NCBI GenBank assembly: GCA_030681555.1
Contig: JAUXRW010000026.1
Span: 1-33,445 of the forward strand
Reading direction: 5' to 3'
Length of the DNA: 33,445 nucleotides
DNA from: Acidimicrobiales bacterium
Lineage (GTDB): Bacteria; Actinomycetota; Acidimicrobiia; Acidimicrobiales; VFJN01
Of the stretch, positions 13,123-16,669 are shown piece by piece. The notes below the pieces were generated by a model that was not told the DNA's origin, made no database searches, and worked only from the letters and a program-made list of their open reading frames with translations. The translations under genes were made by a program, and so were the position numbers. Numbering within the stretch: the stretch's first letter is position 1; the number at the start of each line of letters is the position of its first letter.

Positions 13123-14049
13123 ATGGCCCGGTCGAGCACAAGGAGGACGGCCAAGGGCGACCTCGCTCTCGTCGCCGCCGCCCTGTGCTTCGGCGCCACC
13201 TTCGTCGTCGTGCAGGATGCCATCGAGCGCGTGGAACCGGTCCCCTTCCTCGCAGTCCGCTTCCTCATCGGCGCTGGCTTGCTCTGGCCGTTCGCCCGAC
13301 GGCGGCCCCGCTCAGCCGGCGAGGGACGCGACGGTGTGCTCGCCGGTGTGGCCCTGCTCGTCGGCTACCTCCTCCAGACGATCGGCCTGCAGTACACGGA
13401 CCCGGCCACATCGGCCTTCATCACGTACCTGCTGGTGGTGTTCGTGCCGCTGCTGAGCCTGGTGGCCTTCCGCCGCCGGCCCCATCCCCTCACGCTGGTG
13501 GCCGTGGCGGTCGCCGTCGGTGGCCTCGTGCTGCTGACCGATCCCGGCGGCTCCTCCGGGCTCGGCCGCGGCGAGGTGCTGACGCTGGGCTGCGCGCTGG
13601 CGTACGCGGTGCACGTGCTCGTGCTCGGGCGCACGGCGCATCGCCACGACCCGATGCGCCTGGCGACGATCCAGGTCGCCGTCGTCGGCCTCGTGTGCCT
13701 GGTGCCGGGGGCGGGCATGGGCGGCTACGACTTCCCGGCATCGGCCCTGGCTGCGGCAGCTGCAACCGGCGTGATGGCTACCGCGGTGGCCTTCGCGTGC
13801 CAGGTCTTCGGTCAGCGCACGGTGCCGCCAACCCGCGTCGCGCTGGTGCTGCTCCTCGAGCCTGTGTTCGCGGCGGTGATCTCCGCGTTCGGCGGCGACC
13901 CGCTGTCCACGGTCCAGTACCTCGGGGCGGGGAGCATCCTGATCGCCGTGGTCGTCGGCGAGGCGGTGCCCGGATGGCTTGACCACCGGGTCGAGCTGCG
14001 TCAGGCTGGCGTCGATAACGACCGTTCTCAGGGGGACATGGTTGGCTGA
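13123..14049 (+). CDS. EamA/DMT family transporter
   Basis: A 308-residue membrane protein with two EamA repeats and about ten hydrophobic helices. The first repeat starts at DLALVAAALCFGATFVVVQD and the second at GEVLTLGCALAYAVHVLVLG, with the family-typical EPVFAAVISAFGG near the end. These transporters move small metabolites or amino acids; the substrate is not predictable here. Its last codons contain the TTG start of the first ferritin-like gene (8-nt overlap), so it heads a four-gene operon. A role for the transporter in the ferritin-like system is possible only by association. Confidence 0.88.
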   Translation: MARSSTRRTAKGDLALVAAALCFGATFVVVQDAIERVEPVPFLAVRFLIGAGLLWPFARRRPRSAGEGRDGVLAGVALLVGYLLQTIGLQYTDPATSAFITYLLVVFVPLLSLVAFRRRPHPLTLVAVAVAVGGLVLLTDPGGSSGLGRGEVLTLGCALAYAVHVLVLGRTAHRHDPMRLATIQVAVVGLVCLVPGAGMGGYDFPASALAAAAATGVMATAVAFACQVFGQRTVPPTRVALVLLLEPVFAAVISAFGGDPLSTVQYLGAGSILIAVVVGEAVPGWLDHRVELRQAGVDNDRSQGDMVG

Positions 14050-14701
14050 CTCGAAGAAGCCTCGGGCGCCGTTCGCACCGTGGGACCGCCGAGAGATCCC
14101 CGGGATCTTCTCGGTCGAGGAGTCCGCCCGGCGGGTGGGTCACTACAAGTGGATCGAGATGCGCCTGTTCGAGGTGCTCGGCGGCTGGGTCGCCACCGTG
14201 CCCGAGCTCGACGTGAAGCTGCGGCTCGGCACCCATTGCTACCACCACGCCTGGCACGCCGAGCTCTGGCACAAGCGCCTGCCCGAGCTGCGCGAGATGA
14301 ACCCCGAACGGCTCACCGCTCCCCCGAACGACGAGCTGGTCGCGTTCGTCGAAGCCATGACGGAGCCGGAGGCCGCCGACCTCACGATTGAGAAGATCGT
14401 CGGCGCCTACCGGGTGCTCATCCCGGCCAAGATCGCGGCGTACACGTACCACCTCAACAACACGTCGACGATCACCGACGCCCCCACCATTCGGTCGCTC
14501 AGCTTCATCCTCCAGGATGAGATGAGCGACTGGCGGGACGGCGAGATGATGCTCCAGTCCCTCATCGAGACCGAGGACGAGCTGCAGCGCGCGATCGACC
14601 ACCAGGCCAAGCTGCAGCGGCTGCTGCTCGCCGCCGGTGGGATCGCCGGACCCGGGACCATCGGCGACTCGTACGCCAACGATCAGGAGGCCCACGCATG
14701 A
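14042..14701 (+). CDS. Ferritin-like protein with incomplete diiron site
   Basis: A 219-residue, largely helical protein. The TTG at 14042 is chosen because AGGGGG lies 6 nt upstream and it overlaps the transporter stop; the frame also opens at 13979 but has no ribosome site there. A ferritin-type half-site is visible: Glu39/Glu44 in YKWIEMRLFEVL and ExxH at Glu74-His77 in HHAWHAELWHKRL. The second half-site is degraded: the third helix (YRVLIPAKIAAYTYHLNN) has no Glu at the expected place and the fourth has Glu160-x-x-Asp163 (LQDEMSDWRDGE) instead of ExxH. It may be a structural partner of the next protein, with which it overlaps by 4 nt (ATGA). Confidence 0.65.
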   Translation: MADSKKPRAPFAPWDRREIPGIFSVEESARRVGHYKWIEMRLFEVLGGWVATVPELDVKLRLGTHCYHHAWHAELWHKRLPELREMNPERLTAPPNDELVAFVEAMTEPEAADLTIEKIVGAYRVLIPAKIAAYTYHLNNTSTITDAPTIRSLSFILQDEMSDWRDGEMMLQSLIETEDELQRAIDHQAKLQRLLLAAGGIAGPGTIGDSYANDQEAHA

Positions 14702-15558
14702 GAAAGTCCTTCCCTGTCGAGGATCTGGCGCGGGACGCGCGCTTCGTCCGCGTGCCGATAATGGAGCGGATCACCGATCCGCGGAACGCCTTCCAGGAGC
14801 AGGCGGGCTCGAGCAGCCGCCGTGCTGCGGGCCGGCTCACCCCGGAGCGCCCCGACGCCCCCGATGCCGCCAGGGCCCTGATGCACGGCATCTTCGTGGG
14901 CGAGATCCAGGCCCTCGAGGGCGCCGGCCGCACGTGCTGGGACTTCGAGGTCGGGGCCGGCGACGAGGAGGGCGTGCCCGAGGTGCCCTTCGAGCTGAAG
15001 CTCGACATGGCGCGGCAGTGCTGGGACGAGGCGCGCCACTGCGAGATCTCGATCAAGCTCAGCGACCACATGGGCACCGAGCTCGGAGAGTTCTCCGAGA
15101 ACACGTTCCTCTACGAGGCGGCCTGCAACCCCGACCCCGTCCTCCGCCTCACCGGCGTGAACCGAGCCCTCGAGGGGCTGGCCATCGACGTCTTCAACAC
15201 GATGCGCGAGTTCGGCGAGCTGGCCGGCGACCCCATCCTCGAGTTCTGTGAGGACTGGATGCTCGCCGACGAGGTGACCCACGTGAAGATGGGATCCGAC
15301 TGGCTCCGCCGGCTGACCGTGAACGACAAGGACCGGCAGAAGCGGGCCCTCGAGTTCCAGCGCGTCGTCGACAAGCTCTTCTCCCTCGGCGGCTTCCGCG
15401 GCGAGGAGGAGGACAGCCCTGTGCGCCTAGCCCGCCGCTTCCGGGAGCTGGCCGGGTTCAAGGAAGCGGAGATGGACACGCTCGCCGAGGTGGCCCGCGA
15501 GGCCCGATCCGAGATGGAAGCGCAGGTCGCGCGGAACAAGATCGCCGTGACCGGCTGA
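14698..15558 (+). CDS. Ferritin-like diiron protein (DUF455-like)
   Basis: A 286-residue protein with a full set of carboxylate-diiron ligands in order: Glu69 or Glu74 (FVGEIQALEGAG), Glu111-x-x-His114 (RQCWDEARHCEI), Glu159 (NRALEGLAIDVF) and Glu192-x-x-His195 (LADEVTHVKMG). This E, ExxH, E, ExxH pattern and the spacing resemble DUF455 and MiaE-like ferritin-fold oxygenases or oxidases. The reaction is unknown. It begins in the stop of the preceding ferritin-like gene, so the two are probably made in equal amounts. The pairing of a complete and an incomplete ferritin-fold subunit recalls PaaA/PaaC of phenylacetyl-CoA epoxidase in layout only. Confidence 0.8.
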   Translation: MRKSFPVEDLARDARFVRVPIMERITDPRNAFQEQAGSSSRRAAGRLTPERPDAPDAARALMHGIFVGEIQALEGAGRTCWDFEVGAGDEEGVPEVPFELKLDMARQCWDEARHCEISIKLSDHMGTELGEFSENTFLYEAACNPDPVLRLTGVNRALEGLAIDVFNTMREFGELAGDPILEFCEDWMLADEVTHVKMGSDWLRRLTVNDKDRQKRALEFQRVVDKLFSLGGFRGEEEDSPVRLARRFRELAGFKEAEMDTLAEVAREARSEMEAQVARNKIAVTG

Positions 15559-15566
15559 GGCGCGGC

Positions 15567-16121
15567 GTGGCTGTCGAGATCCGACCGGAGACCTTCTCTC
15601 TTGTGCTCTTCGATGTGGAGGAGATCCGCGCCCTGACCGAGCAGCTCGTCGCCCAGATCGGCCTCCCGCGGGACGCCTCCGTAACGGTCGAGGTCGACGA
15701 GACCACCCCGCTGGGGTACGCGCACGTCACGTCCCTCTCGCCGGTCATGCTCTCCCTCGAGTCAGGGGCGCTCGAGGATCCGAAGCGCCCACGCCAGATG
15801 GATCCCGTCGGGTCGGCCGACGTGCTCGGCCGACTGCTGTTCGAGGTGCGCGACCGGCTCGACCCGGCCTTCGGCGAAGCCCCTGCGTCCGGCGATCTCA
15901 CGCTGCCCGAGGCCTCGGCCTGGCAGGCCTACTGCGTCGGGCGCCTCGGCCGGCTCGGCCACCACGTGCAGCGCCAGCGCCGGCTCTACCACTTCCGCAA
16001 CCGGCACGCCTTCAGCGACGCCGCCGATGCCGCGTTCGACCGGCTCTGGAACGGGGATGGGCTCACCTGGGCCGACATCGTCGCCGAGTCGAACGGCGCG
16101 CTCGCCGCCCAGCCTGCCTGA
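15567..16121 (+). CDS. Conserved-looking protein of unknown function in the ferritin-like operon
   Basis: A 184-residue soluble protein. The N-terminal half (about residues 1-75) looks like an alpha/beta domain with strands around TFSLVLFDVEEI, SVTVEVDET and AHVTSLSPVMLSLES. The C-terminal half is helical with many Arg/His residues (LGRLGHHVQRQRRLYHFRN) and ends with a Trp-containing helix. No family is recognised. The GTG at 15567 has GAGG 6 nt upstream, and the gap to the previous stop is only 8 nt, so it belongs to the same transcription unit and may act with the two ferritin-like proteins. Confidence 0.7.
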   Translation: MAVEIRPETFSLVLFDVEEIRALTEQLVAQIGLPRDASVTVEVDETTPLGYAHVTSLSPVMLSLESGALEDPKRPRQMDPVGSADVLGRLLFEVRDRLDPAFGEAPASGDLTLPEASAWQAYCVGRLGRLGHHVQRQRRLYHFRNRHAFSDAADAAFDRLWNGDGLTWADIVAESNGALAAQPA

Positions 16122-16130
16122 GCTGCCGGC

Positions 16131-16469
16131 CTAGCGCAGGTCGTGGGCGCTGATCGGGTCGAGCAGATCGATCTGCGGCGGCTCGGCGAGGAGGCCCTCG
16201 CAGCCCGTCGCCATCTGGACCATGTCCGCGGAGTCGAAGTGCCGCTGCTGGTCCTCCGGCTGCTCCCACTTCTGCAGGATGACGAAGCGGTTGGGACGCG
16301 TGGTCGAGAGGGCGAGGTCGATGTTGCGGCAGCCCGGATGCCCCCGGCTCACGACGACGTAGCGCGCTAGCACGGCCTGCAGCGCCTCGGGATCGACGGC
16401 GTCGAAGGCCATCGTTACCATGGTGAGATCGACCTCCCGGGCCCCGGGCCCGTCGCCATCGTCGCCCAT
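16131..16469 (-). CDS. Antibiotic biosynthesis monooxygenase (ABM) domain protein
   Basis: A 112-residue single-domain protein of the ABM/YgiN dimeric ferredoxin-like fold: a TMVTMAFDAVDPEALQAV opening, the GHPGCRNIDLALS strand turn, and FVILQKWEQPEDQQRHFDS, the most conserved ABM block. Members include quinol and heme-degrading monooxygenases, but most are uncharacterised. The ATG at 16469 is preferred to the GTG at 16472 because AAGGAG lies 7 nt before it. The gene converges on the ferritin-like operon with 9 nt between the stops and may be unrelated to it. Confidence 0.8.
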   Translation of the reverse strand: MGDDGDGPGAREVDLTMVTMAFDAVDPEALQAVLARYVVVSRGHPGCRNIDLALSTTRPNRFVILQKWEQPEDQQRHFDSADMVQMATGCEGLLAEPPQIDLLDPISAHDLR

Positions 16470-16669
16470 CACAGATCTCCTTCAGATAACGGTACGAAGC
16501 CCCTGACCTGGGGTTTCCTCCTCGATCGACCGGCCAGCAGGCCCCAATGAGGGGACGCTTGACCAAGTCGGTATCGTAGATCCGTACCCCGCGCCGAGGA
16601 CGGGTCCCGGCGGCTCCCGTCGTTGTGTGCGTCCCCGGCTCCCCAGTTCACGAGCAAGAGGTGCATCAG

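Follow-up and report, generated by a model that had tools for sequence, protein, structure and literature searches.

The stretch of DNA analysed here (the window, 33,445 nucleotides from an Acidimicrobiales bacterium) belongs to a 3.3 Mb assembly of 162 contigs, and its closest named relatives are metagenome genomes of Acidimicrobiia/Actinomycetota. It carries a gene for an EamA-family transporter followed by genes for two ferritin-like proteins, here termed FLs and FLb, and for a protein of 184 residues, U184 (Table 1). The limits of these four open reading frames agree with those given in the initial annotation. FLs starts with a TTG codon at position 14042, within the 3′ end of the transporter gene, and this start is backed by the alignment of its orthologues. 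The stop codon of FLs and the start codon of FLb overlap, which makes translational coupling of the two probable, and U184 begins 8 bases after FLb.

Table 1. Ferritin-like gene module of the window and its upstream neighbour.
Feature	Position	Strand	Remark
EamA-family transporter gene	13123..14049	+	Overlaps FLs by 8 bases; not part of the core set
FLs, ferritin-like protein of 219 residues; degraded diiron site, N-terminal WDRR arm	14042..14701	+	
FLb, DUF455 ferritin-like protein of 286 residues; complete diiron set, N-terminal LARDxRF arm	14698..15558	+	
ATGA, overlap of FLs stop and FLb start (4 bases)	14698..14701	+	Read from the sequence
U184, 184 residues; no known family, confident alpha/beta model	15567..16121	+	

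FLb is a member of the DUF455 family (PF04305; Pfam HMM, E 5e-18, 66 bits against a curated cut-off of 34.3), and our literature search found no published function for DUF455/COG2833. The complete E, ExxH, E, ExxH set that had been read from this protein at the outset consists of E69, E74, E111xxH114, E159 and E192xxH195, all of which are invariant among the 43 FLb sequences aligned. The protein thus meets the ligand pattern of ferritin-like diiron oxidases and oxygenases (E/ExxH/E/ExxH), and the residues lie on four helices of its model. An N-terminal arm with the motif LxRDxRF is present in 78 of 78 FLb sequences.

FLs is a detectable homologue of FLb, as judged by pairwise tests and a shared helix register. 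BLASTP of one against the other gives E 5e-5, and that of a stand-alone FLs from another locus (L135) against FLb gives E 9e-10, with z of 8 and 15, respectively, relative to shuffled sequences; hhalign, run on the FLs and FLb alignments as profiles, gave a probability short of significance. In the joint model described below, H69 of FLs and its equivalent E111 of FLb each occupy the 14th place of helix 2, and E160 and E192 likewise that of helix 4. For helix 1, the register of E39 and E69 is that of the MAFFT alignment and the helix positions, the BLAST alignment using a gap there. FLs matches no Pfam family at E<=1, so it is not DUF455 by HMM, and no ferritin-like or DUF455 family was found among the Pfam matches of 13 FLs proteins and relatives. 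A match of the paralogue FLs2 to TetR_C_31 (E 8e-4, below the family cut-off) was taken as a chance helical match.

The metal site of FLs is indeed degraded, as initially proposed: E39 is kept and the rest is altered. The retained half-site had been placed at Glu74-His77, which we reject, for these residues are variable (E74 is replaced by Asp in 13 of 81 orthologues, H77 by Asp or Asn in 21 of 81) and out of register. Instead, both the alignment and the matching helix positions of the model identify H69-x-x-H72, found in 81/81 sequences, as the counterpart of E111xxH114 of FLb. The position of the bridging E159 is occupied by Ile, Leu or Val127 in all 81 (I127 in the window protein), and that of E192xxH195 by E/D160-x-x-D/E163 (E160xxD163 in the window). 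Hence the principle of asymmetry was right and the residue assignment wrong. E39, H69, H72, E117, R124, H137 and D159 are invariant among the 81 orthologues, and the identity of 69-88% to the window FLs that these maintain over many families indicates an apparently strong constraint. From their ligands only, FLb would be the catalytic protein and FLs a non-catalytic one.

A joint model was built from a locus (L101) in which FLs and FLb lie in one frame apart from one TAG; its alignment comprised five in-frame loci read through the stop, together with FLb rows. The read-through model has a pLDDT of 68 and a pTM of 0.66; most of each N-terminal arm lies under a pLDDT of 50. The best match of its FLb half is an aldehyde deformylating oxygenase (ADO; 6jzu_B, Z 17.8, rmsd 2.9, 195 aligned), and that of its FLs half an R2-like ligand-binding oxidase (R2lox; 6i94, Z 16.8, rmsd 3.1, 196 aligned). 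These Z-scores, which concern the fold and not the interface, exceed the tool's level for chance helical bundles; by Foldseek alone, no E-value was below 0.03. By sequence, no significant relative of FLs, FLb or U184 was found in the PDB, the best being U184 against an engineered protein (E 0.012). The structural matches rank oxidases of the RNR/ADO/R2lox type first, with soluble diiron monooxygenase hydroxylases also among them.

This ranking bears on whether the two proteins might serve in iron handling or peroxide defence, FLb being a ferroxidase or peroxidase akin to ferritin or rubrerythrin, and FLs a variant subunit, as in heteropolymeric ferritins. The ferritin-like fold and diiron ligands of FLb are compatible with such a role, as is the conserved location near housekeeping genes. 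However, the top structural matches are oxidases of another type, a rubredoxin domain was not found in the Pfam scan, and the neighbours of the paralogous pair described below are a dicluster ferredoxin gene and acyl-CoA genes, not iron or peroxide genes. We therefore regard this explanation as very unlikely.

U184, which the initial annotation had listed as a protein of unknown kind, indeed matches no known family in Pfam scans. Its model is alpha/beta and highly confident (pLDDT 97.5). The closest solved folds are zincin peptidases, at a borderline level: the best Foldseek E-value is 0.08, and the comparison with ERAP1 gives a VIA Z of 8.1 (rmsd 4.3, 164 aligned), a level which the tool warns may equal a common arrangement. 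The HExxH zinc motif is absent from 73/73 U184 sequences, and a zincin metallopeptidase was accordingly rejected.

To describe the surroundings of the genes, 80 orthologous loci were compared, many of them cut by contig ends. The common order is FLs, usually FLb and U184, then a gene on the opposite strand, and then a sigma factor gene; nadE lies upstream of FLs in about half of the loci. The opposite-strand gene, at 16131-16472 in the window, encodes a monooxygenase-like (ABM) protein of 113 residues and is found downstream of the module in 63 of the 80. An EamA homologue lies upstream in only 23/80, and the operon of four genes that had been proposed from the window is not borne out as a core feature: the transporter is variable and FLb is often unlinked, the constant set being FLs, FLb and U184. 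FLb is present in 64 of the loci. Of the remaining 16, two break off right behind FLs, and in 13 of the 14 that continue past it U184 is the next gene; U184 is thus linked to FLs more tightly than FLb is. Over many Acidimicrobiia families, the three proteins are conserved at 36-88% identity to those of the window.

Co-occurrence was determined in 298 genomes of the order, counting FLs of this type at 61% identity or more, or as clear fragments, and FLb at over 60% identity. FLs, FLb and U184 were found in 61, 57 and 58 genomes, respectively. Outside the 61 with FLs, no FLb was found, and U184 gave no more than two trivial scores. In two additional genomes, G254 and G351, the sole FLb-like protein is the FLb2 paralogue, at about 50% identity. 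Fisher tests give values of about 1e-57, which are inflated by shared ancestry, and the joint presence is itself partly a reflection of such ancestry. Several families, among them f1, f2, f57, f67 and f95, contain genomes in both states, which argues for a probable joint gain or loss of the set.

Among the 61 genomes, FLb adjoins FLs in 36. Of the 25 in which it is not beside FLs, 21 have it at another place in the genome, and in 4 no FLb was found. Separate occurrence in relatives had been named beforehand as an outcome that would speak against a pair. What is seen is divided: distant FLs do stand alone, yet FLb, when it moves to another contig, is retained. The unlinked copies examined mostly belong to a separate clade, FLb-B, and this paralogue may therefore serve in trans. 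At the FLb-B loci (L152-L171), the unlinked gene is often followed by one for a conserved, probable membrane protein of 100-125 residues. From their sequences we take the FLb-B neighbours to be PEP carboxykinase-like, small membrane, CaiB-like and D-Ala ligase-like proteins; these neighbourhoods gave no clue to function.

More distant FLs proteins (about 35-50% identity in the loci examined) lie between nadE and the same sigma factor gene in other families, without FLb or U184, and they retain E39, H69, H72, R124, D159 and E168. Moreover, one genome (G134) has lost FLb by deletion and kept FLs intact. Given how widespread stand-alone FLs is, and its retention in G134, FLs evidently has some role without FLb. 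Beside FLs in that genome lies a relic of the deletion (L150:6068-6445), in which an FLb N-terminal arm, LARERRF, forms an in-frame fusion with the C-terminal helices of U184.

It could then be argued that there is no complex of FLs and FLb at all, FLs being a housekeeping ferritin-like protein of the nadE-sigma locus, with FLb and U184 co-inherited in the same pathway or stress response. Stand-alone FLs at that position in many families, and its persistence in G134 after FLb loss, are what one would expect of such a protein. In addition, roughly one in three of the 61 genomes has its FLb apart from FLs, and in a mirror-tree analysis (distance-matrix correlation) the correlation within the trio is equalled by that with the adjacent nadE. 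Against this, the WDRR arm at the N-terminus of FLs tracks the presence of FLb: it is found in 80/81 orthologues of the FLb-associated type and in 3/3 FLs2 proteins, but in 0/11 stand-alone FLs. The arm is thus a candidate FLb-docking element. The constraint on FLs orthologues noted above also speaks against this explanation, as does the duplication of the pair together with a ferredoxin, in swapped order and with 4-base overlaps. Weighing these, we hold the absence of a complex to be rather unlikely.

Another proposal is that FLs has catalytic activity of its own at a mononuclear 2-His-1-carboxylate site (E39/H69/H72), the pair then forming an oxygenase with two sites. In a set of FLs sequences that includes the stand-alone forms, E39 occurs in 22/22, H69 in 21/22 and H72 in 20/22, and R124, H137, D159 and E168 are nearly invariant. 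However, confidence in the FLs part of the model is moderate and no metal is included in it, and we give this proposal little credence.

The strongest sequence evidence that the pair works together, and that electrons are supplied to its iron site, is its joint duplication with a ferredoxin. On contig C1 of the source genome (L006:7030-8968), genes for a dicluster 4Fe-4S ferredoxin, FLb2 and FLs2 share one orientation and overlap by 4 bases at each junction, the order of the pair being swapped relative to the window. FLb2 is also a DUF455 protein (75.2 bits against the cut-off of 34.3), and the same trio is found in G351 and G254. Its neighbours in the source genome are genes for Mce4, a FadD-like (acyl-CoA) ligase, a Baeyer-Villiger-type monooxygenase and an aldehyde dehydrogenase; in G351 and G254 they are genes for a BadI/MenB-like hydratase, a lipase-like hydrolase, an SDR, an acyl-CoA dehydrogenase and a FadD4-like ligase. 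The arrangement shows that FLb and FLs were copied together and came to be linked with a ferredoxin, and it suggests reductive O2 activation. No reductase or ferredoxin gene lies beside the window copy. The lipid and CoA context belongs to the paralogue, and to extend it to the window copy is guesswork.

Other proteins of related appearance were observed. A further FLb2-like fragment lies at C116:32838-33044 (80% identity over 69 residues). A protein of 372 residues at L006:434-1552 may, from its DEAPH motif, be ferritin-like as well; it has no Pfam match. Two similar proteins of the source genome (L011 on C65 and L012 at C1:31466) carry a MDEARH ... SDEARH pattern of diiron type and match DUF455 weakly, without the LxRDxRF arm.

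Taken together, the gene set is real, conserved and, as far as could be found, undescribed in the literature, and it looks like a multi-part oxygenase of the mostly uncultured Acidimicrobiia. On balance, though by a modest degree, we think it probable that FLb is a catalytic diiron oxygenase or oxidase of the RNR/ADO type, with FLs as a structural or regulatory partner and U184 as an accessory component, fed by ferredoxin. The heteromer, the O2 chemistry, the electron donor, the role of U184 and the class of substrate are what we infer from the above, as follows. FLb would bind two irons as the catalytic subunit, and FLs, a diverged paralogue without the dinuclear site, would pair with it, the N-terminal arms (WDRR in FLs, LxRDxRF in FLb) being candidates for docking; U184 would be tied to FLs. 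Ferredoxin would reduce FLb, in trans for the window copy and in cis in the paralogous operon, and reduced FLb would activate O2 for the oxidation of a substrate that is lipid-like or linked to CoA.

A bolder version, which we regard as conceivable but improbable, is a new type of three-component oxygenase with a DUF455 catalytic subunit, an FLs pseudo-subunit bearing its own single-metal E/HxxH site, and U184 as a pseudo-zincin adaptor. These parts would have been recruited to a much older stand-alone FLs, and a copy of the pair, with a ferredoxin of its own, would later have entered lipid or steroid-type catabolism. A paired ferritin-like oxygenase with a ferredoxin-linked paralogue would provide three gene families (DUF455, FLs and U184), in a group with few cultures, with one specific enzyme hypothesis.

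Several known systems resemble the proposed one in part. Aldehyde deformylating oxygenase and R2-like ligand-binding oxidase, which are diiron or Mn/Fe carboxylate oxidases, are the best structural matches, but the identity over the alignment is under about 20%; there is no acyl-ACP reductase partner here, and a paired, degenerate subunit is present. MMOH and its relatives have two homologous ferritin-fold subunits, one of them with a diiron site, although the subunits are far larger and are joined by a gamma subunit and an effector protein. No sequence relation of FLs or FLb to the soluble diiron monooxygenase hydroxylases was found. From PF04305 proteins at large, FLb differs by its LxRDxRF arm and the paired FLs.

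The closest parallel is phenylacetyl-CoA epoxidase (PaaABCE), in which PaaA and PaaC, 17% identical and of the same fold, form a heterodimer bridged by PaaB (PMC4498308). As in that enzyme, we find a homologous pair of a putatively catalytic diiron subunit and a putatively non-catalytic ferritin-fold subunit, a third small protein and, presumably, an external reductant. The initial suggestion of a catalytic and structural ferritin-fold pair accordingly gains from the homology, the co-occurrence in the 298 genomes and the duplicated ferredoxin operon, and the likeness to PaaA/PaaC holds for the probable way of working but not for membership: neither FLs, FLb nor the FLs relatives match the PaaA_PaaC family in Pfam at E<=1. 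FLb is instead a DUF455 protein and U184 belongs to no known family; the genes have no PaaE-like reductase beside them and differ in order and companions. If the proposal is true, FLs and FLb would be a further catalytic and pseudo-catalytic ferritin-fold pair beside PaaA/PaaC, in a different sequence family.
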